Positions 46,592 through 56,403 of a stretch of 64,000 nt of DNA are shown piece after piece. The position numbers and the translations under genes were made by a program. This stretch comes from Luteimonas sp. 9C. Its GTDB lineage: Bacteria; Pseudomonadota; Gammaproteobacteria; Xanthomonadales; Xanthomonadaceae. Position 1 is the first letter of the stretch; each line of letters starts with the position of its first letter. Under the pieces are notes generated by a model. It made no database searches, was not told the origin of the DNA, and saw only the letters and a list, made by a program, of their open reading frames with translations. Location: the NCBI RefSeq assembly GCF_902506295.1, contig NZ_LR733312.1:1502095-1566094 (forward strand), given 5' to 3'.

Positions 46592-47782
46592 TCACTCGAA
46601 CACGTCGGCCGGCACGCGCACCGCGCCGTCCATCAGCACGCGCGCCGAGCGCGACATGATCGCCCTGGCGACGGTCCATTGCCCGTCGGTCTGCACCGCT
46701 TCCGCGCCGACGCGCAAGGTGCCCGACGGATGTCCGAAGCGCACCGACGTGCGGGCGCCGCCGCCCGCCGCCAGGTTCACCAGCGTGCCGGGAATCGCGG
46801 CGGCCGTGCCGATCGCAACCGCCGCCGTGCCCATCATCGCGTGGTGCAGCTTGCCCATCGACAGCGCGCGGACCAGCAGATCGATGTCGCCGGCCGCGAT
46901 CGCCTTGCCACTCGACACCACGTGATCGCGCGGTGGCGCGACGAACGCGACTTTGGGCGTGTGCTGGCGCTTCGACGCCTCGGAGACATCACTGATCAGC
47001 CCCATGCGCACCGCGCCGTGCGCGCGGATCGTCTCGAACATCGCCAGCGCTTTCGCGTCGCCGTTGATCGCGTCCTGCAGCTCGGCGCCGGTATAACCGA
47101 TCGACGCGGCCTCGATGAAGATCGTTGGAATGCCCGCGTTGATCAGCGTCGCGCGCAGCGTGCCGACACCCGGCACGTCGAGATCGTCGACGAGCTGGCC
47201 GGTGGGAAACATCGCGCCGCCGCCCTCGCCTTCGTCTGCGGGATCGACGAATTCCAGCACGATCTCCGCCGCCGGGAACGTGACGCCGTCGAGTTCGAAA
47301 TCGCCGGTCTCCTGCACCTGCCCGTCCGCGACCGGCACGTGCACGATGATGGTCTTGCCGATGTTCGCCTGCCAAACGCGCACCGCGACGGTGCCGTCGC
47401 GCGGAATCCGCGAGGCATCGATGAAGCCGTTGGCGATCGCGAACGGGCCGACCGCGGTGCTGAGGTTGCCGCAGTTGCCGCTCCAGTCGACGAACGCGCT
47501 GTTGATCGACACCTGGCCGTAGAGATAGTCGACGTCGTGATCCGGCACCGACGCCGGCCCGATGATCACGCACTTGCTCGTCGACGACGTCGCGCCGCCC
47601 ATGCCGTCGGTGTGCTTGGCGTAGGGATCGGGCGAGCCGATCACGCGCATCAGCAGCGCATCGCGCGCGGGGCTGGGCACCTGCGCGGCGGCAGGCAGGT
47701 CTTCGAGGCGGAAGAACACGCCTTTGGAGGTGCCACCGCGCATGTAGGTGGCGGGGATGCGGAGCTGGGGAGCAAATGCCAT
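46592..47782 (-). CDS. prpF: 2-methylaconitate isomerase PrpF
   Basis: PrpF is the AcnD-associated isomerase that converts the trans to the cis 2-methylaconitate so the next hydration can proceed. The 396-residue protein starts MAFAPQLRIPATYMRGGTSK at 47782 and has diaminopimelate-epimerase-like signatures: MRGGTSKGVFF, SSTSKCVIIGP, WSGNCGNLSTAVGPFA and GKLHHAMMGTAAVAIG. It is the last gene of the prp operon. Loss of prpF would make AcnD-dependent propionate degradation stall. An RNA-ligase-like gene separates it from acnD. Confidence 0.95.
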   Translation of the reverse strand: MAFAPQLRIPATYMRGGTSKGVFFRLEDLPAAAQVPSPARDALLMRVIGSPDPYAKHTDGMGGATSSTSKCVIIGPASVPDHDVDYLYGQVSINSAFVDWSGNCGNLSTAVGPFAIANGFIDASRIPRDGTVAVRVWQANIGKTIIVHVPVADGQVQETGDFELDGVTFPAAEIVLEFVDPADEGEGGGAMFPTGQLVDDLDVPGVGTLRATLINAGIPTIFIEAASIGYTGAELQDAINGDAKALAMFETIRAHGAVRMGLISDVSEASKRQHTPKVAFVAPPRDHVVSSGKAIAAGDIDLLVRALSMGKLHHAMMGTAAVAIGTAAAIPGTLVNLAAGGGARTSVRFGHPSGTLRVGAEAVQTDGQWTVARAIMSRSARVLMDGAVRVPADVFE

Positions 47783-48403: not shown

Positions 48404-51001
48404 TCAGACCGCCTTCGAAGACTCCAGAAAATCCTGCGCAAACCGCTGCAGCACCCCACCCGCCTCGTAGATCGACACTTCTTCCGCGGTATCGAGTCGG
48501 CAGATCACCGGCACCGACGCCTGCGTGCCGTCCTGACGATGGATCACCAGGGTCAGCATCGCGCGCGGGGTACGGTCGCCGGTGACGTCGAAGGTTTCGG
48601 TGCCGTCGATGCCGAGCGTCAGCCGGGTCACGCCGGGCTGGAATTCCAGCGGCAGCACGCCCATGCCGATCAGGTTGGTGCGGTGGATGCGTTCGAAGCC
48701 TTCGGCGACGATCGCCTCCACGCCCGCCAGACGCACGCCCTTGGCCGCCCAGTCGCGCGAGCTGCCCTGGCCGTAGTCGGCGCCGGCGATGATCACCAGC
48801 GGCTGCTTGCGCTCCATGTAGGTCTCGATCGCTTCCCACATGCGCACGACCTGCCCATCGGGCTCGATGCGCGACAGCGAGCCTTGCCGCACGGTGCCGT
48901 CGACGATCGCCATCTCGTTGACGAGTTTCGGGTTGGCGAACGTGGCGCGCTGCGCGGTCAGATGGTCGCCGCGATGGGTGGCGTAGGAATTGAAGTCCTC
49001 CTCCGGCACGCCCATCTTGGCGAGGTACTCGCCGGCCGCGCTGTCGGCCATGATCGCGTTCGACGGCGACAGGTGATCGGTGGTGATGTTGTCGCCGAGC
49101 ACCGCGAGCGGCCGCATGCCGGTCAGCGTGCGCGCGCCGGCCAGCGCACCCTCCCAGTACGGCGGACGGCGGATGTAGGTGCTCATCTCGCGCCAGTCGT
49201 ACAGCGGCGCGACGCGCTCGCCGGTGTCGACGTGCAGCTTGAACATCGGCCCGTAGACGGCGCGGAACTGTTCCGGCTTGACGCTGGCCTTGACCACCGC
49301 ATCGATCTCTTCATCCGACGGCCAGAGATCCTTGAGCGTGACCGCGTTGCCGTCGTGGTCGATGCCGAGCACGTCCTTCTCGATGTCGAAGCGCACGGTG
49401 CCGGCGATCGCATACGCGATGACCAGCGGCGGCGACGCGAGGAAGGCCTGCTTGGCGTAGGGATGGATGCGGCCGTCGAAGTTGCGGTTGCCGCTGAGCA
49501 CGGCGGTCGCATACAGATCGCGGTCGATGATCTCCTGCTGGATCGCGGGATCCAGCGCGCCGCTCATGCCGTTGCAGGTGGTGCAGGCGAACGCGACGAT
49601 GCCGAAGCCCAGCTGCTCGAGATCCGGCAGCAGGCCGCTTTCCTCCAGATACAGCTGCACGGCCTTGGAGCCCGGCGCGAGCGAGCTCTTGACCCAGGGC
49701 TTGCGCGTGAGGCCGCGCGCGTTCGCGTTGCGCGCCAGCAGCGCGGCGGCAATGACGTTGCGCGGGTTCGAGGTGTTCGTGCAGCTGGTGATCGCGGCGA
49801 TGATCACCGCGCCGTCGGGCATGGTGCCGTCGGTCGGCATGTCCCACGCGCCGGCGATGCCGCTGGCGGCGAGATCGCGGGTCGCCACGCGCTTGTGCGG
49901 ATTCGACGGCCCGGCCATGTTGCGCACCACGCTCGACAGGTCGAAATGCAGCGTGCGTACGTACTGGGCACTGGCCAGCGAATCGGCCCACAGGCCCGCG
50001 GCCTTCGCATAGGTCTCGACCAGCGCGACCTGGGTGTCCTCGCGCCCGGTCAGGCGCAGGTAGTCGAGCGTGTTGTCATCGATGAAGAACATCGCGGCGG
50101 TCGCGCCGTACTCGGGCGCCATGTTGGAGATCGTCGCGCGATCGCCGACCGACAGCGCGGCCGCGCCCGGCCCGCGGAATTCCAGATATGCGCCGACGAC
50201 CTTCGAAATGCGCAGGAATTCGGTCAGCGCCAGCACGACGTCGGTCGCGGTGATGCCCGGTCCGGGACGGCCTGCGAGTTCGACACCGACGATCTCCGGC
50301 GTGCGCATCCACGAGGCGCGGCCGAGCATGACGTTCTCGGCTTCGAGGCCGCCCACGCCGATCGCGATCACGCCCAGCGCATCGACGTGCGGCGTGTGGC
50401 TGTCGGTGCCGACGCAGGTATCCGGGAACGCGACGCCGTCCTGGACGTAGACCACCGGCGACATCTTCTCCAGGTTGATCTGGTGCATGATCCCGTTGCC
50501 CGGCGGAATCACCTCGACGTTGTGGAACGCGAGCTTGGTCCAGTCGATGAAGTGGAAACGGTCGGCATTGCGGCGATCCTCGATCTCGCGGTTGCGGATG
50601 AACGCATCCGGGTCGTAACCGCCGCATTCCACTGCCAGTGAGTGGTCGACGATCAGCTGTACCGGCACGACCGGATTGACCTTCGCGGGATCACCGCCCT
50701 GGTCGGCGATCGCATCGCGCAGACCGGCGAGGTCGACGAGCGCGGTCTGGCCGAGGATGTCGTGGCAGACCACGCGCGCCGGATACCACGGGAAGTCGAT
50801 GTCCTGCCGCAGCTCGATCAGCTGGCGCAGCGCGTCGTCGAGCTGCGCCGGTTCGCAGCGCCGCACCAGGTTTTCGGCGTGCACGCGCGCGGTGTAGGAC
50901 ATGCGGTCATACGCGCCGGGCGCGAGCGCGTCGACGGCGGCGCGCGCGTCGAACCAGTCGAGCTGGGTGCCGGGAAGGGGTTTGCGGTGCTGGCTGTTCA
51001 T
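48404..51001 (-). CDS. acnD: Fe/S-dependent 2-methylisocitrate dehydratase AcnD
   Basis: AcnD dehydrates 2-methylcitrate in the methylcitrate cycle; PrpF then isomerises its product. The 865-residue aconitase-fold protein starts MNSQHRKPLPGTQLDWFDAR and has the 4Fe-4S cysteines: a single Cys in AAITSCTNTSNPRNV and the pair in FACTTCNGMSGAL. Other aconitase landmarks are GTDSHTPHVDALGVIAIGVG, and GADYGQGSSRDWAAKGVRLA with the RTNLIGMGVLPLEF swivel-domain segment. The gene replaces the PrpD-type dehydratase. It lies second to last before prpF, following prpC. Confidence 0.96.
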   Translation of the reverse strand: MNSQHRKPLPGTQLDWFDARAAVDALAPGAYDRMSYTARVHAENLVRRCEPAQLDDALRQLIELRQDIDFPWYPARVVCHDILGQTALVDLAGLRDAIADQGGDPAKVNPVVPVQLIVDHSLAVECGGYDPDAFIRNREIEDRRNADRFHFIDWTKLAFHNVEVIPPGNGIMHQINLEKMSPVVYVQDGVAFPDTCVGTDSHTPHVDALGVIAIGVGGLEAENVMLGRASWMRTPEIVGVELAGRPGPGITATDVVLALTEFLRISKVVGAYLEFRGPGAAALSVGDRATISNMAPEYGATAAMFFIDDNTLDYLRLTGREDTQVALVETYAKAAGLWADSLASAQYVRTLHFDLSSVVRNMAGPSNPHKRVATRDLAASGIAGAWDMPTDGTMPDGAVIIAAITSCTNTSNPRNVIAAALLARNANARGLTRKPWVKSSLAPGSKAVQLYLEESGLLPDLEQLGFGIVAFACTTCNGMSGALDPAIQQEIIDRDLYATAVLSGNRNFDGRIHPYAKQAFLASPPLVIAYAIAGTVRFDIEKDVLGIDHDGNAVTLKDLWPSDEEIDAVVKASVKPEQFRAVYGPMFKLHVDTGERVAPLYDWREMSTYIRRPPYWEGALAGARTLTGMRPLAVLGDNITTDHLSPSNAIMADSAAGEYLAKMGVPEEDFNSYATHRGDHLTAQRATFANPKLVNEMAIVDGTVRQGSLSRIEPDGQVVRMWEAIETYMERKQPLVIIAGADYGQGSSRDWAAKGVRLAGVEAIVAEGFERIHRTNLIGMGVLPLEFQPGVTRLTLGIDGTETFDVTGDRTPRAMLTLVIHRQDGTQASVPVICRLDTAEEVSIYEAGGVLQRFAQDFLESSKAV

Positions 51002-51038
51002 GGCTGGCTTCAACGATCCGGAAGGAGCAGAAACGCGT

Positions 51039-51074: not shown

Positions 51075-52235
51075 TTACGTGCGCTCGGCGATCGGGACGA
51101 ACGCCTGGTCCTCGGGACCGGTGTACTGCGCGCTCGGGCGGATGATCTTGCCGTCGATGCGCTGCTCGATGACGTGCGCGCTCCAGCCGGCGGTGCGCGC
51201 GATCACGAAGAGCGGCGTGAACATCGCCGTCGGCACGCCCATCATGTGGTAGCTCACCGCGCTGAACCAGTCGAGGTTCGGGAACATCTTCTTGATGTCC
51301 CACATCACCGTTTCCAGGCGCTCGGCGATGTCGTACATCTTGCGGCTGCCCACTTCGTCCGACAGTTCCTTGGCGACCTGCTTGATGACCTCGTTGCGCG
51401 GATCGCTGACGGTGTAGACCGGGTGGCCGAAGCCGATGATCACTTCCTTCTTCTCCACGCGCGCCTTGATGTCGGCTTCCGCTTCGTCGGGCGTGTCGTA
51501 GCGCTTCTGCACTTCGAACGCGACTTCGTTCGCGCCGCCGTGCTTGGGGCCGCGCAGCGCACCGATGCCGCCGGTGATCGCGCTGTGCATGTCGCTGCCG
51601 GTGCCGGCGATGACGCGGCAGGCGAAGGTCGAGGCGTTGAACTCGTGCTCCGCGTACAGGATCAGCGAGGTGTGCATCGCCTTGACCCAGGACTCGCGCG
51701 GCTCGTGCCCGTGCAGCAGATGCAGGAAGTGCCCGCCGATCGAATCGTCGTCGGTCTCGACGTCGATCGCGCGGCCGTTGTGGCTCCAGTGGTACCAGTA
51801 CAGCAGCATCGAACCAAGGCAGGCCATCAGCTTGTCGGCGATGTCGCGCGCGCCCGGATGGTTGTGGTCGTCCTTCTCCGGCGCAACGCAGCCGAGCACC
51901 GACACGCCGGTGCGCATGACGTCCATCGGGTGCGCCGATGGCGGCAGCTCTTCCAGCGCGGCCTTGACCGCCGCCGGAATGCCGCGCAGGGACTTGAGCT
52001 TGGCCTTGTAGCCGCGCAGTTCCGCTTCGGTCGGCAGCTTGCCGTGGACCAGCAGATAGGCGATCTCCTCGAATTCGCTGGTGCGCGCGAGATCGAGGAT
52101 GTCGTAGCCGCGGTAGTGCAGATCGTTGCCGCTGCGGCCGACGGTACACAGCGCGGTGTTGCCGGCGGCCGTGCCGCTCAGCGCGACGGACTTCTTCGGC
52201 TTGAAGCCGGGGGCGGTGGTGGCGGTGTCGCTCAT
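51075..52235 (-). CDS. prpC: 2-methylcitrate synthase
   Basis: PrpC condenses propionyl-CoA with oxaloacetate to 2-methylcitrate. The 386-residue protein starts [20 protein letters not shown] at 52235. Citrate-synthase catalytic residues are visible: His in [17 protein letters not shown], His in [15 protein letters not shown] and Asp in [20 protein letters not shown]. The [20 protein letters not shown] segment and overall sequence place it with methylcitrate rather than Krebs citrate synthases, and operon context agrees. It follows prpB by 52 bases. Confidence 0.97.
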
Positions 52236-52287: not shown

Positions 52288-53175
52288 TTACTTCTTGTTG
52301 GATGCGAACAGCGCGTCGAGGCGCTGCTCGAAGGCGTGGTAGCCGATACGCTCGTAGAGTTCCTCGCGGGTCTGCATCGTCTCGACGACGGCCTGCTGCG
52401 ATCCATCACGGCGCACCGCGGTGTACACCGCTTCGGCGGCCTTGTTCGCGGCGCGGAATGCGGACAGCGGGAACAGCTGGATCGCGACGCCCGCAGACGC
52501 CAGTTCGTCGCGGGTGAACAGCGGCGTGGCACCGAACTCGGTGATGTTGGCCAGCACCGGCACCTTCACCGCATCGACGAAGCGGCGATAGGTGTCGAGG
52601 TCGTAGGCGGCCTCGGCGAAGATGCCGTCGGCGCCGGCTTCGACGCAGGCGATGGCGCGTTCGATCGCGGCGTCCACGCCATCGACCTGGATCGCATCGG
52701 TGCGCGCGATCAGGAAGAAGTCGGGATCGGTCTTCGCATCGGCCGCTGCCTTGACCCGGTCGACCATCTCGCCCTGCGACACGATCTCCTTGCCCGGGCG
52801 ATGGCCGCAGCGCTTGGCGCCGACCTGGTCTTCGATGTGGCACGCCGCGGCGCCCGCCTTGATCAGCGACTTCACCGTGCGCTCGATGTTGAACGCGCTC
52901 GCGCCGAAGCCGGTGTCGATGTCGACCAGCAGCGGCAGGTCGCAGACGTCGGTGATGCGGCGCACGTCGATCAGCACGTCCTCGAGCGTGTTGATGCCCA
53001 GGTCCGGCAACCCCAGCGAGCCCGCCGCCACGCCGCCGCCCGAAAGATAGATCGCCTGGAAGCCGGCGCGCTGCGCCAGCAGCGCGTGGTTGGCGTTGAT
53101 CGCGCCGATCACCTGCAGCGGCGATTCGGCGGCCAGGGCGGCGCGGAACCGTGCGCCTGCGGAAACGGTGGACAT
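52288..53175 (-). CDS. prpB: 2-methylisocitrate lyase
   Basis: PrpB splits 2-methylisocitrate into pyruvate and succinate, the last step of the methylcitrate cycle. The 295-residue protein starts [20 protein letters not shown] at 53175 and has the isocitrate-lyase superfamily motifs [20 protein letters not shown] (metal Asp), [20 protein letters not shown] with the catalytic-loop Cys in KRCGH, and [17 protein letters not shown]. It is the first gene of the prp operon, divergent from the HTH-citrate-synthase gene, and its promoter contains the TTGATC palindrome. Confidence 0.97.
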
Positions 53176-53236
53176 GGGGTCGACTCCGGGACTGCGGTGT
53201 ACCGCGATGCCGTGCAATCTGGCACCATCCGACTGG

Positions 53237-53264
53237 TTGATCAATCTTGATCGAATCAATCAAT
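53237..53264. promoter_or_regulatory. palindromic operator candidate in prpB promoter region
   Basis: In a locally AT-rich stretch TTGATCAA (53237-53244) is followed by TTGATCGAATCAA (53247-53259) and a further TCAATCAA, so TTGAT half-sites face ATCAA half-sites several times in 28 bases. It lies between the divergent starts of prpB and the HTH-citrate-synthase gene, the natural place for the operator of the latter. Confidence 0.6.
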
Positions 53265-53279
53265 ACATCGGAATTCACT

Positions 53280-54497
53280 GTGAATGCGAACGATGGCGAC
53301 CTGATGTCCGCGGCGCAGGCCTGCGCCGCACTCGGCATCAGCACCGCGACGCTCTACGCCTATGTCAGCCGCGGCCTGCTGGCGTCACGCCCCGGCACCG
53401 ACCATCGCAGCCGCATGTACCTGCGCCAGGACGTCGAGCGCCTGACCCAGCGCAAGCGTGCGGGCCGCGGCGCGGCGCGTGGCGCGGCGCAGAGTCTCGA
53501 TCGTGGCCTGCCGGTGCTGGAGACCCGGATCTCGCTGATCCGGCCCGACAGCCCCTACTACCGCGGGCGGTCCGCGGTCGCGATGGTGCGCAGCGGCGCC
53601 ACGCTCGAGGACACCGCGCGGCTGCTGTGGGACTGCGGTGATGTCGATCCGTTCGACAACGAGGCCGGCGACTGGCCCGCGCGCGTCACCGCGATCGCGC
53701 GCGATGCCGGCTTGCCGCCGATCGAACGCGCGATGGCCGCGATCCCGCTGCTCGCACCGGACCTGCGGCATTCGCTGAGCGCCGCGCCCGCAGCCAAGCG
53801 CGGCGTCGCGGCGACGCTGCTGCGCCAGAACGCGGCGCTGCTGGTCGCAGGCTCACCGGACGCGCGTCCGGTGCACAGCCTGCTCGCCGATGCCTGGCGC
53901 CCGGGCGATGCGGCCTTTGCCGAGCTCGTACGCGCGGCACTGGTGCTGTGCGCCGACCACGAGCTCAACGTGTCGGCGTTCGCCGCGCGCGTGGTCGCGT
54001 CCACCGGCGCGCATCTGCACGCGACGGTCTGCGCGGGACTCGCGGCGCTGTCCGGGCCGCGCCACGGCGGCGCCACTGCGCGTGCGCATGCGCTGATCCG
54101 CGAGGCCTGCGACGCGCCCTCGCCCGCGCAATTCGTCGCCGAGCGCTGGCAACGCGGCGACGACCTGCCCGGCTTCCATCATGTGCTGTATCCCGACGGC
54201 GATCCGCGCGCCGCCGAAGTGCTGGCGATGCTGCGTGCGCGTCATGCCGGCGACACACGCATGCAACAGGTCGAGGCGGTGCTCCATTCCGCCGCCGAGA
54301 CCAGCGGCCGTCAGCCCAATATCGACGGCATGCTCGCGGCGATCTGCTTCGTGCACGGCCTGCCGGCAACGCCGGCGCTGTGCATGTTCGCCGCCGGCCG
54401 GCTCGCCGGCTGGCTGGCACATGCGCTGGAGCAGCAGGAACTCGGCACGCTGATCCGGCCGCGCGCGCAGTACACGGGCGTCGCGCCGGCGGAATGA
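53280..54497 (+). CDS. MerR-like HTH fused to citrate-synthase fold (candidate prp regulator)
   Basis: The 405-residue protein starts with a helix-turn-helix (ACAALGISTATLYAYVSRGL followed by the wing SRPGTDHRSRMYLRQDVERL), then a citrate synthase domain from about residue 95 to the end. Citrate-synthase residues are mostly kept: His in ALSGPRHGGATARAHALIRE, His in LPGFHHVLYPDGDPRAAEV, Asp in NIDGMLAAICFVHGLPATPA, and the final AGRLAGWLAHALEQQELG. Start is uncertain: GTG 53280 has GGA upstream, ATG 53304 gives MSAAQACAALG, and TTG 53247 overlaps the operator. It is divergent from prpB and convergent with prpE (stops 4 bases apart), consistent with a transcription factor sensing a methylcitrate-cycle metabolite. 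Catalytic activity is not excluded. Confidence 0.85.
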   Translation: MNANDGDLMSAAQACAALGISTATLYAYVSRGLLASRPGTDHRSRMYLRQDVERLTQRKRAGRGAARGAAQSLDRGLPVLETRISLIRPDSPYYRGRSAVAMVRSGATLEDTARLLWDCGDVDPFDNEAGDWPARVTAIARDAGLPPIERAMAAIPLLAPDLRHSLSAAPAAKRGVAATLLRQNAALLVAGSPDARPVHSLLADAWRPGDAAFAELVRAALVLCADHELNVSAFAARVVASTGAHLHATVCAGLAALSGPRHGGATARAHALIREACDAPSPAQFVAERWQRGDDLPGFHHVLYPDGDPRAAEVLAMLRARHAGDTRMQQVEAVLHSAAETSGRQPNIDGMLAAICFVHGLPATPALCMFAAGRLAGWLAHALEQQELGTLIRPRAQYTGVAPAE

Positions 54498-54501
54498 CGG
54501 C

Positions 54502-56403
54502 TCAGCCCGCGTCCGCGCCCCGCGCCAGGACGCGGCGTACTTCTTCCAGCGCATTCGGATCGTCGAGCGTCGACAGATCCCCCGGATCGCGCGCTTCCGC
54601 CAACGCCTGCAGCGAGCGCCGCAGCAGCTTGCCCGAACGCGTCTTCGGCAAGGCGTTGACCACGTAGACCCGCGCCGGTCGCGCGACGGCGCCGAGCTGA
54701 TCCGCGACGGTGCGCATCATCTCGCCCGCGGTCGCGTGCTGCGCGTCCGCATCCACCGATGCCTGCTTGAGTGTCACGAACACGATCGGCACCTGGCCCT
54801 TCAGTTCGTCGGCGACGCCGATCACCGCGGCCTCGGCGACGGCCGGATGGCTGGACACCGATTCCTCGATCTCGCGTGTGCCGAGTCGATGGCCGGCGAC
54901 GTTGATGACATCGTCGGTGCGGCCGAGGATGAAGGTGTAGCCGTCCTCATCCTGGATCGCCCAGTCCAGTGAGCTGTAGAGCAACTCCTTGAAGTGCGAG
55001 AAGTAGCTCGACAGAAAACGCGCGTCGTCGTTCCACACGGTGGTCATGCAGCCGGGCGGCAGCGGCGGCTGGATCACCAGCACACCCTTGGCGCCGGGTG
55101 GCACCCGCTCGCCGGTGGCTTCATCGATCACGCGCAGGTCGTAGCCCGGCGTGGGCAGGCCGGGCGAGCCGAACTTGACGGGTTTCATTTCGACGCCCGG
55201 CATCAACGCCAGCACCGGCCAGCCGGTTTCGGTCTGCCAGTAGTTGTCGACGATGGTCGTGCCGCCGAGGCCGGTGCTGATCCAGCTCGCGGTGGGTTCG
55301 TCGAGCGGTTCGCCGGCCAGGAACAGGTAGTCGAGTTTCGACAGGTCGTACTGGGTCAGGAATTTCGCGTCCTGTTTCTTCAGTACGCGGATCGCCGTCG
55401 GCGACGAGAACATCGTACGCACGCCGTAGTCGGCGCAGATCTTCCACCAGATGCCGCCATCGGGACTGGTCGGCAGACCTTCGTAGAGAATGACCGTCGC
55501 GCCGGCGATCAGCGGGCCGTAGACGTTGTAGGAATGCCCGACCGCCCAGCCCACGTCGGACGTGGTGAACATCACCTGCCCCGGGCGGATGTCGTAGATC
55601 GACCACATCGAAAGCGCCATCGCGACCGCATAGCCGCCGACATCGCGCTGCACGCCCTTTGGCTTGCCGGTGGTACCGGAGGTGTAGAGCAGATAGCTGG
55701 GTTCGTTGGACTCCAGCCATTCCACCGGCACATCGGTGCCGGCGTGCTGCGCGCGGAGGGTCGCGTAATCGACGTCGCGCCGTTCGACGCGCGCATAGCC
55801 GGGGTCGAGTCCGCGGTCAATGATCAGCACGTGCGGCGGCGGGGCCTGCGCCTCCGCACACGCGGCATCGACCAGCGGCTTGTATGGAATCGTTTTGCCG
55901 CCGCGGCTGCCGGCATCGGCGGCGATCAGCAGTTTCGGCGTGGCGTCGTCGATGCGCAGCGCCAGGTTGTGCGCGGCAAATCCGCCGAAGACCACCGAGT
56001 GCACCGCGCCGATGCGCGCGCAGGCCAGCATCGCGAACACGGCCTCGGCCATGTTCGGCATGTAGATGACCACGCGGTCGCCACGCTCGACGCCGAGCGC
56101 TTTCAGCACGGCCGCGAAATCGTTGACCTCCCGATACAGCTGCGCGTAGCTGATCTCGCGCGTCTCGTTGGTTTCCGTGGAGATCGCGACGAGTGCGAGC
56201 TGGTCGCCGCGCGCATCGAGGTGCCGGTCGACGGCGTTGTAGCAGAGGTTGGTCTCGCCGCCGGCAAACCACTTGCGGAACGGCGGATTCGAGTAATCGA
56301 GGATCCGATCCGGCGCCTTGTGCCAGTGGATCGCCTGCGCCTGCTCGCCCCAGAACCCCTCGGGATCTTCGATGGAGCGGCGGTGGAAGTCCTCGTAGCC
56401 CAT
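54502..56403 (-). CDS. prpE: propionate--CoA ligase
   Basis: PrpE activates propionate to propionyl-CoA through an acyl-adenylate. The 633-residue protein starts MGYEDFHRRSIEDPEGFWGE at 56403. It has the AMP-binding signature SYLLYTSGTTGKPKGVQRDV, VDNYWQTETGWPVLA, the hinge GRTDDVINVAGHRLGTREIE and the catalytic Lys in LPKTRSGKLLRRSL. Relation to acetyl-CoA synthetase is close, but the PKGVQRDVGG context and the adjacent prp genes support propionate. It lies downstream and on the opposite strand of the regulator gene, so is a separate transcript from prpBC-acnD-prpF. Confidence 0.93.
   Translation of the reverse strand: MGYEDFHRRSIEDPEGFWGEQAQAIHWHKAPDRILDYSNPPFRKWFAGGETNLCYNAVDRHLDARGDQLALVAISTETNETREISYAQLYREVNDFAAVLKALGVERGDRVVIYMPNMAEAVFAMLACARIGAVHSVVFGGFAAHNLALRIDDATPKLLIAADAGSRGGKTIPYKPLVDAACAEAQAPPPHVLIIDRGLDPGYARVERRDVDYATLRAQHAGTDVPVEWLESNEPSYLLYTSGTTGKPKGVQRDVGGYAVAMALSMWSIYDIRPGQVMFTTSDVGWAVGHSYNVYGPLIAGATVILYEGLPTSPDGGIWWKICADYGVRTMFSSPTAIRVLKKQDAKFLTQYDLSKLDYLFLAGEPLDEPTASWISTGLGGTTIVDNYWQTETGWPVLALMPGVEMKPVKFGSPGLPTPGYDLRVIDEATGERVPPGAKGVLVIQPPLPPGCMTTVWNDDARFLSSYFSHFKELLYSSLDWAIQDEDGYTFILGRTDDVINVAGHRLGTREIEESVSSHPAVAEAAVIGVADELKGQVPIVFVTLKQASVDADAQHATAGEMMRTVADQLGAVARPARVYVVNALPKTRSGKLLRRSLQALAEARDPGDLSTLDDPNALEEVRRVLARGADAG

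Follow-up and report, generated by a model that had tools for sequence, protein, structure and literature searches.

A helix-turn-helix–citrate synthase fusion protein as the probable local regulator of the methylcitrate operon in Luteimonas sp. 9C, with a conserved operator

In Luteimonas sp. 9C, a gene divergent from the methylcitrate (prp) operon encodes a protein in which a helix-turn-helix (HTH) head is joined to a citrate synthase (CS) domain, and sequence comparison strongly supports a link between this HTH-CS protein and a palindromic site lying between the two gene starts. The fusion, the operator, their co-occurrence, the promoter-like overlap and the conservation of residues were all obtained by computation. 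The protein is quite probably an autoregulating local repressor of the prp genes, with the CS domain acting as a sensor of oxaloacetate or (methyl)citrate. It also seems fairly likely to represent an undescribed and widespread transcription factor family of the Pseudomonadota, with a whole CS with intact active site as sensor and a single operator, TCAATnTTGAT-N7-ATCAA. The family would have moved once (in Xanthomonadales) from a CS or CoA-transferase gene to the methylcitrate operon, where it stands beside prpB in different genomes from PrpR, even within one genus. The window, which is the whole stretch of DNA analysed (64,000 nucleotides; NZ_LR733312.1, positions 1,502,095 to 1,566,094), carries the following features, the prp genes being assigned by NCBIfam equivalog models above their cut-offs.

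46592..47770, minus strand: prpF, 2-methylaconitate isomerase (TIGR02334 above cut-off; 5' limit approximate)
48404..51013, minus strand: acnD, 2-methylisocitrate dehydratase (TIGR02333 above cut-off; 5' limit approximate)
51075..52205, minus strand: prpC, 2-methylcitrate synthase (NF009006 above cut-off; 5' limit approximate)
52288..53175, minus strand: prpB, 2-methylisocitrate lyase, the divergent target (TIGR02317 and NF008455 above cut-off)
53216..53244, minus strand: putative prpB promoter (alignment of 81 intergenic regions)
53237..53263, no strand: predicted operator, TTGATCAATCTTGAT-N7-ATCAA (sole site in the genome at ≤3 mismatches; conserved with the gene)
53280..54497, plus strand: HTH-CS regulator gene (Pfam HTH_17 and Citrate_synt; start compared over homologues)
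54502..56403, minus strand: prpE, propionate-CoA ligase (TIGR02316 above cut-off; 5' limit approximate)

The preliminary description of this DNA had proposed a MerR-like HTH joined to a CS domain, encoded divergently from prpB, and both points are borne out. One open reading frame (ORF) carries HTH_17 (Pfam, E 1.6e-7, residues 19-70 of the reading from TTG), MerR_1 in the same head (E 3e-5) and Citrate_synt (PF00285, E 3.1e-57, residues 86-406). A purely mechanical reading starts the ORF at TTG 53247, within the operator; GTG 53280, which lies 16 nt past the operator at a position common to close Luteimonas relatives, is the likely start. Membership of the CS superfamily follows from the PF00285 match, the fold matches in the PDB and eight active-site residues. 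An AlphaFold model (47 input sequences, mean pLDDT 77.8, with stretch 62-94 of 405 at low confidence) gave 165 PDB matches in Foldseek at E≤0.001, and the 50 of these that were listed, with TM 0.52-0.62 by query length, are all citrate or methylcitrate synthases. The protein scores under the cut-off in all 22 NCBIfam citrate/methylcitrate synthase families listed (best scores: NF009005, 142.5 bits vs a cut-off of 332; TIGR01800, 133.9 vs 421.3), and a Pfam search gave no match to PrpR_N (PF06506) in it. HTH-CS proteins share an almost unchanged recognition stretch, TLYAYVSRG, in the HTH.

The term MerR-like holds for the HTH, but not beyond it. The head qualifies as a MerR-type winged HTH by its MerR_1 score (24.5 bits vs a cut-off of 21.6), and PF00376 MerR gives 21.1 bits, under its 28.2 cut-off. 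Only about 15 residues separate the end of HTH_17 (residue 70) from the beginning of Citrate_synt (86), too short a linker for the coiled coil of MerR proteins, and the helices of 13 and 10 residues that the model places there fall within the low-confidence stretch 62-94. The effector part is instead a whole CS. MerR operators lie between -35 and -10 elements separated by a 19-20 bp spacer, whereas here the spacer is 17 bases and the palindrome extends upstream of the -35, outside any lengthened spacer. Assignment of HTH-CS to the MerR family was rejected on the coiled coil and the operator position.

The palindrome array between the two starts, first described as TTGATC/ATCAA, is present at 53237-53263, where it reads TTGATCAATCTTGATCGAATCAATCAA; its core is corrected to TTGAT-N7-ATCAA, at 53247-53263. 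With up to 3 mismatches allowed, the operator was found nowhere else in the 3.35-Mb genome, and a near-identical pattern (spacer of 6, not 7; ≤3 mismatches) had 0 matches in 100 shuffles of the window. The prpE gene, convergent with the regulator gene, thus lacks a separate operator. A role across a wider regulon was rejected on the single operator in this genome and on the phylum search, in which 48 of 49 genomes with a match have one match only. The best 80 of 229 homologous loci (record titles: Luteimonas, Lysobacter, Pseudoxanthomonas, Stenotrophomonas, Xanthomonas and unclassified bins) all have prpB divergent from an adjoining HTH-CS gene. Together with the window, 78/81 have the exact motif TCAATnTTGAT-N7-ATCAA; of the other three, L005 has the core palindrome, and L048 and L080 have neither exact form, close variants being visible in the sequence. 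In 105/114 homologues having a site, 1-16 nt separate the operator from the first candidate start codon that follows it.

Ungapped alignment of the 81 intergenic regions revealed a second conserved block, CAATsTGkCACC, at a fixed distance from the operator. Read on the prpB strand, the two blocks give TTGATC-N17-CAGATT, so the putative -35 (TTGATC, 53244-53239) falls inside the operator, followed by a 17-base spacer and a -10 CAGATT (53221-53216) with TG upstream. This spacing fits 76/81 regions by pattern, 5 being without a pattern match. The site accompanies the gene and lies across the putative divergent promoter, as would suit an autoregulated local transcription factor. A sigma-54 prpB promoter in the window, suggested by a TGGCAC word, was rejected by eye because its -12 element is unfit.

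Gene and operator were compared across genomes, with ≤12 candidates scored per genome in the family search and ≤4 in the phylum search, so that some absences may be misses. Among 149 Lysobacteraceae genomes, the exact operator is found in 31 and the gene (E≤1e-60) in 31, and the two sets are identical; for independent genomes the chance of this would be 1/C(149,31), or about 1e-32, though these genomes are not independent. In 29/31 carriers the operator precedes the start of the gene match by 15-47 nt on the same strand; the distance is 234 nt in G739, and operator and gene are on different contigs in G755. Presence varies within at least three genera (codes g1, g3 and g461), and the motif tracks the gene in the genomes listed. 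Over 398 Pseudomonadota genomes, 40 have gene and exact operator, 8 the gene only, 9 the operator only and 341 neither (Fisher p 4e-38, a value that, like the family figure, overstates the evidence because genomes of one family are not independent). Where both occur (the 40 genomes), an operator precedes the gene by 11-68 nt in the same orientation. A reversed control pattern matched 3 phylum genomes. An HTH-CS match was sought in 3.9-5 kb around each of the 9 operator-only places, and none was found there. Among the 8 genomes with the gene alone, the core palindrome survives in three (L139, L145, L151); the core is absent in the other five (L130, L134, L152, L154, L155), and in 4/5 of these a catalytic residue is lost. 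The gene is found in 4/274 sampled genomes of the class (E≤1e-40), so its distribution is patchy. One genome (G583, L153; C3:429995 and 432910) has a second HTH-CS copy 2.9 kb downstream of the nearest exact operator, perhaps acting on an operon from a distance.

Outside Xanthomonadales the same site accompanies HTH-CS at other genes, as seen in 37 of the 43 non-Xanthomonadales places from the phylum search. The divergent neighbor is a stand-alone CS in 25/37 (Pfam run on two), with 28-35% identity to PrpC over the matched stretch, and the operator at these loci is exact in 23, core only in 1 and absent in 1. In 3/37 it is a family III CoA-transferase (L120, L125, L126), with an exact operator in 3/3; an Azospirillum locus (L203) likewise faces a CoA-transferase with the same operator, and HTH-CS possibly controls a CoA-ester pathway at these loci. 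The neighbor is other or unclear in 9/37 (ORF calls only; operator exact in 2, core in 2, none in 5). Two relatives, Agrobacterium fabrum C58 ATU_RS25370 and Azospirillum B510 AZL_RS28705, are full-length HTH + CS proteins like that of the window (43-46% identity), with the same operator just before the matched region. Unlike the window protein, they face a citrate/methylcitrate synthase gene in A. fabrum and a CoA transferase gene in Azospirillum, not prp, and they carry an enzyme-type product name only (NCBI 'citrate synthase family protein'). In A. fabrum C58 the RefSeq start is upstream of the operator, which places the site within the reading frame. As the same operator precedes HTH-CS at CS or CoA-transferase loci, the site follows the HTH-CS protein and not prp. 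In a quick tree (20 of the 86 Xanthomonadales proteins, with a long-branch warning and support by SH-aLRT alone), all HTH-CS fall together, apart from the enzymes (SH-aLRT 98), and those linked to prp form one group (100). In one genome (G415; L118/L170), HTH-CS and operator face acnD-prpF, and prpBC are found elsewhere without an operator.

The window's prp locus was said to have no PrpR-type or GntR-type regulator; the former holds genome-wide (no PF06506 match), and the latter for the 17 ORFs checked (7 + 10, 6 of those ten without any Pfam match). PrpR_N occurs in 16/149 Lysobacteraceae genomes, and none of these has HTH-CS or the operator. Two types of prpB are seen in Lysobacteraceae (76-95% vs 62-67% identity to the window prpB), the close type being the best match in 29/31 HTH-CS genomes. 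The chance of no overlap between PrpR and HTH-CS is 0.018 over the 148 genomes with prpB and 1.4e-4 over the 76 with the close type; over the 148 the exclusion is modest, and lineage may account for it. PrpR_N matches adjoin prpB divergently in three genomes (G356, G561, G652; L166-L168) of the genus coded g3, to which G165, a genome with HTH-CS, also belongs; a sigma-54-like box at their prpB was noted by eye only. PrpR is also divergent from an adjoining prpB in G657, and an extra ORF lies between prpB and prpR in G676. As neither regulator is found in 31/76 close-type genomes, the prp operon can do without either. The core operator is absent within 400 nt upstream of prpB in 15/15 fetched loci lacking HTH-CS, and so in the neither-regulator subset (L185-L197, 13 loci). 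Two of these belong to the window's genus (L185, L186; G723, G794); their prp locus has no HTH-CS and no operator, prpE immediately precedes prpB in the same orientation, and no divergent regulator was seen. PrpR thus resembles HTH-CS in standing divergent from prpB at the same place (G356, G561, G652, G657). It is an unrelated sigma-54-type protein, however, HTH-CS being without PrpR_N and the prpB promoter here looking sigma-70 type. According to PMC12153269, PrpR of X. citri binds the prpB promoter and represses prp with no response to 2-methylcitrate, and Salmonella PrpR, as cited there, activates prp when loaded with 2-methylcitrate.

Alignment of the CS domain with the window's PrpC and the genome's GltA confirmed the two active-site His and the Asp that had been noted, and all eight residues checked are present: H238, N242, H274, H320, R329, D375, R401 and R421 (active-site positions in pig numbering, with columns set by the window's PrpC). 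All eight are found in 86/86 Xanthomonadales HTH-CS proteins (the window, the 80 loci, L116-L118, L172 and L173, the last two repeating L043 and L053) and in 29/37 others; 3 of the 37 differ at N242 only, and in 5 at least one of H274, H320 and D375 is gone. H238, R329, R401 and R421, presumably oxaloacetate/citrate contacts, are kept in 123/123. Lys or Arg at positions -7/-6 before the catalytic acid, in a loop assumed to touch the CoA phosphates, is found in 36/36 enzymes (25 stand-alone CS, 10 PrpC, 1 GltA) vs 1/123 HTH-CS, which mostly have Ser/Thr-Gly; the window protein has an Arg one residue further on. Selection would thus seem to have kept DNA binding and acid binding, and acyl-CoA binding to have been altered.

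Regulation of the adjacent prp operon by the fusion, as originally suggested, is supported by the identical gene and operator sets in the family, by the same operator beside most relatives at other target genes, and by the lack of both gene and operator in family genomes with PrpR. We infer a dimer, DNA binding, repression and a ligand. The CS domain would dimerize like citrate synthases and set two HTH heads on TTGAT-N7-ATCAA, with a second HTH-CS copy perhaps on the adjoining TTGATCAA. Since the operator covers the putative prpB -35 and, in most relatives, ends 1-16 nt before the regulator's first candidate start codon, bound protein would block both and so silence prpBC-acnD-prpF and the regulator gene alike. 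HTH-CS would sense a substrate or product of methylcitrate synthase, the signal being a tri- or dicarboxylate, and would leave the operator while propionate is degraded. Because the acid-contact residues are kept and the basic residues before the catalytic acid are gone, sensing of 2-methylcitrate or oxaloacetate is proposed, these being more likely ligands than propionyl-CoA.

The operator geometry would suit an activator touching the -35, which counts against repression. HTH-CS on the same operator would then contact RNA polymerase at the prpB -35 with 2-methylcitrate and repress only itself, a reading that we regard as possible but doubtful. MerR-type heads are frequently activators, the operator overlaps the putative -35, and PrpR adjoins prpB in relatives without HTH-CS; however, the -35 hexamer is inside the operator and not downstream of it, the 17-base spacer is normal and needs no remodelling, and even PrpR is reported as a prp repressor in X. 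citri (PMC12153269). The intact catalytic triad, which exceeds a sensor's needs and is accompanied by the full catalytic set in all Xanthomonadales members, likewise counts against a repressor and would fit a catalytically active (methyl)citrate synthase with a second role in controlling the neighbor operon, its DNA binding being set by its catalytic state. Such a trigger enzyme is unlikely, given that prpC is already in the same operon, that 122/123 HTH-CS lack the basic residues preceding the catalytic acid and that, among the five distant members that lost H274, H320 and/or D375, L132 keeps the operator.

That the protein is simply an isoenzyme whose HTH is vestigial, and that the palindrome serves a different prp regulator, is very improbable: the NCBI name in plasmid relatives is only 'citrate synthase family protein', but the operator accompanies HTH-CS before non-prp genes and is absent from the examined prp loci without it. 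Also weighing against the preferred autoregulating repressor are the exact operator missing in 8/48 phylum gene carriers, the 234-nt gap in G739, the distant second copy in G583, the A. fabrum RefSeq start that places the site in frame, the modest PrpR/HTH-CS exclusion over the 148 prpB genomes and the 31 close-type genomes with neither regulator.

No description of an HTH-citrate synthase regulator was found in an open-access library; a comparative analysis of proteobacterial propionate regulons from 2012 may already list the operator motif. Among enzyme-derived regulators, MocR/GabR (GntR head, aminotransferase fold) and ROK/NagC likewise join a DNA-binding head to an enzyme-fold sensor, with a different head and a different enzyme fold. 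A Streptomyces citrate synthase-like protein (PMC9739823) is not relevant here. If the proposal is correct, a function would be given to a protein family whose present product name is that of an enzyme alone; metabolic models that count HTH-CS as citrate synthase may be misled by this name. HTH-CS would also provide a clear-cut, testable instance of a sensor derived from a central-metabolism enzyme that has retained its catalytic residues, and an example of unrelated regulators (PrpR and HTH-CS) exchanged on one operon. The operator/HTH-CS pair could serve as a biosensor of 2-methylcitrate or oxaloacetate.

Mycobacterium tuberculosis CitA and bacterial PrpC structures are among the best fold and sequence matches to the CS domain; unlike HTH-CS, they are enzymes without an HTH. 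PrpC, GltA and stand-alone CS also differ from it in keeping the basic residues at -7/-6, a comparison that does not include CitA. In the stand-alone CS that face HTH-CS (L119-L150, e.g. L123:6533-7657), Glu replaces the catalytic Asp in 25/25, unlike in HTH-CS, which mostly keeps the Asp.
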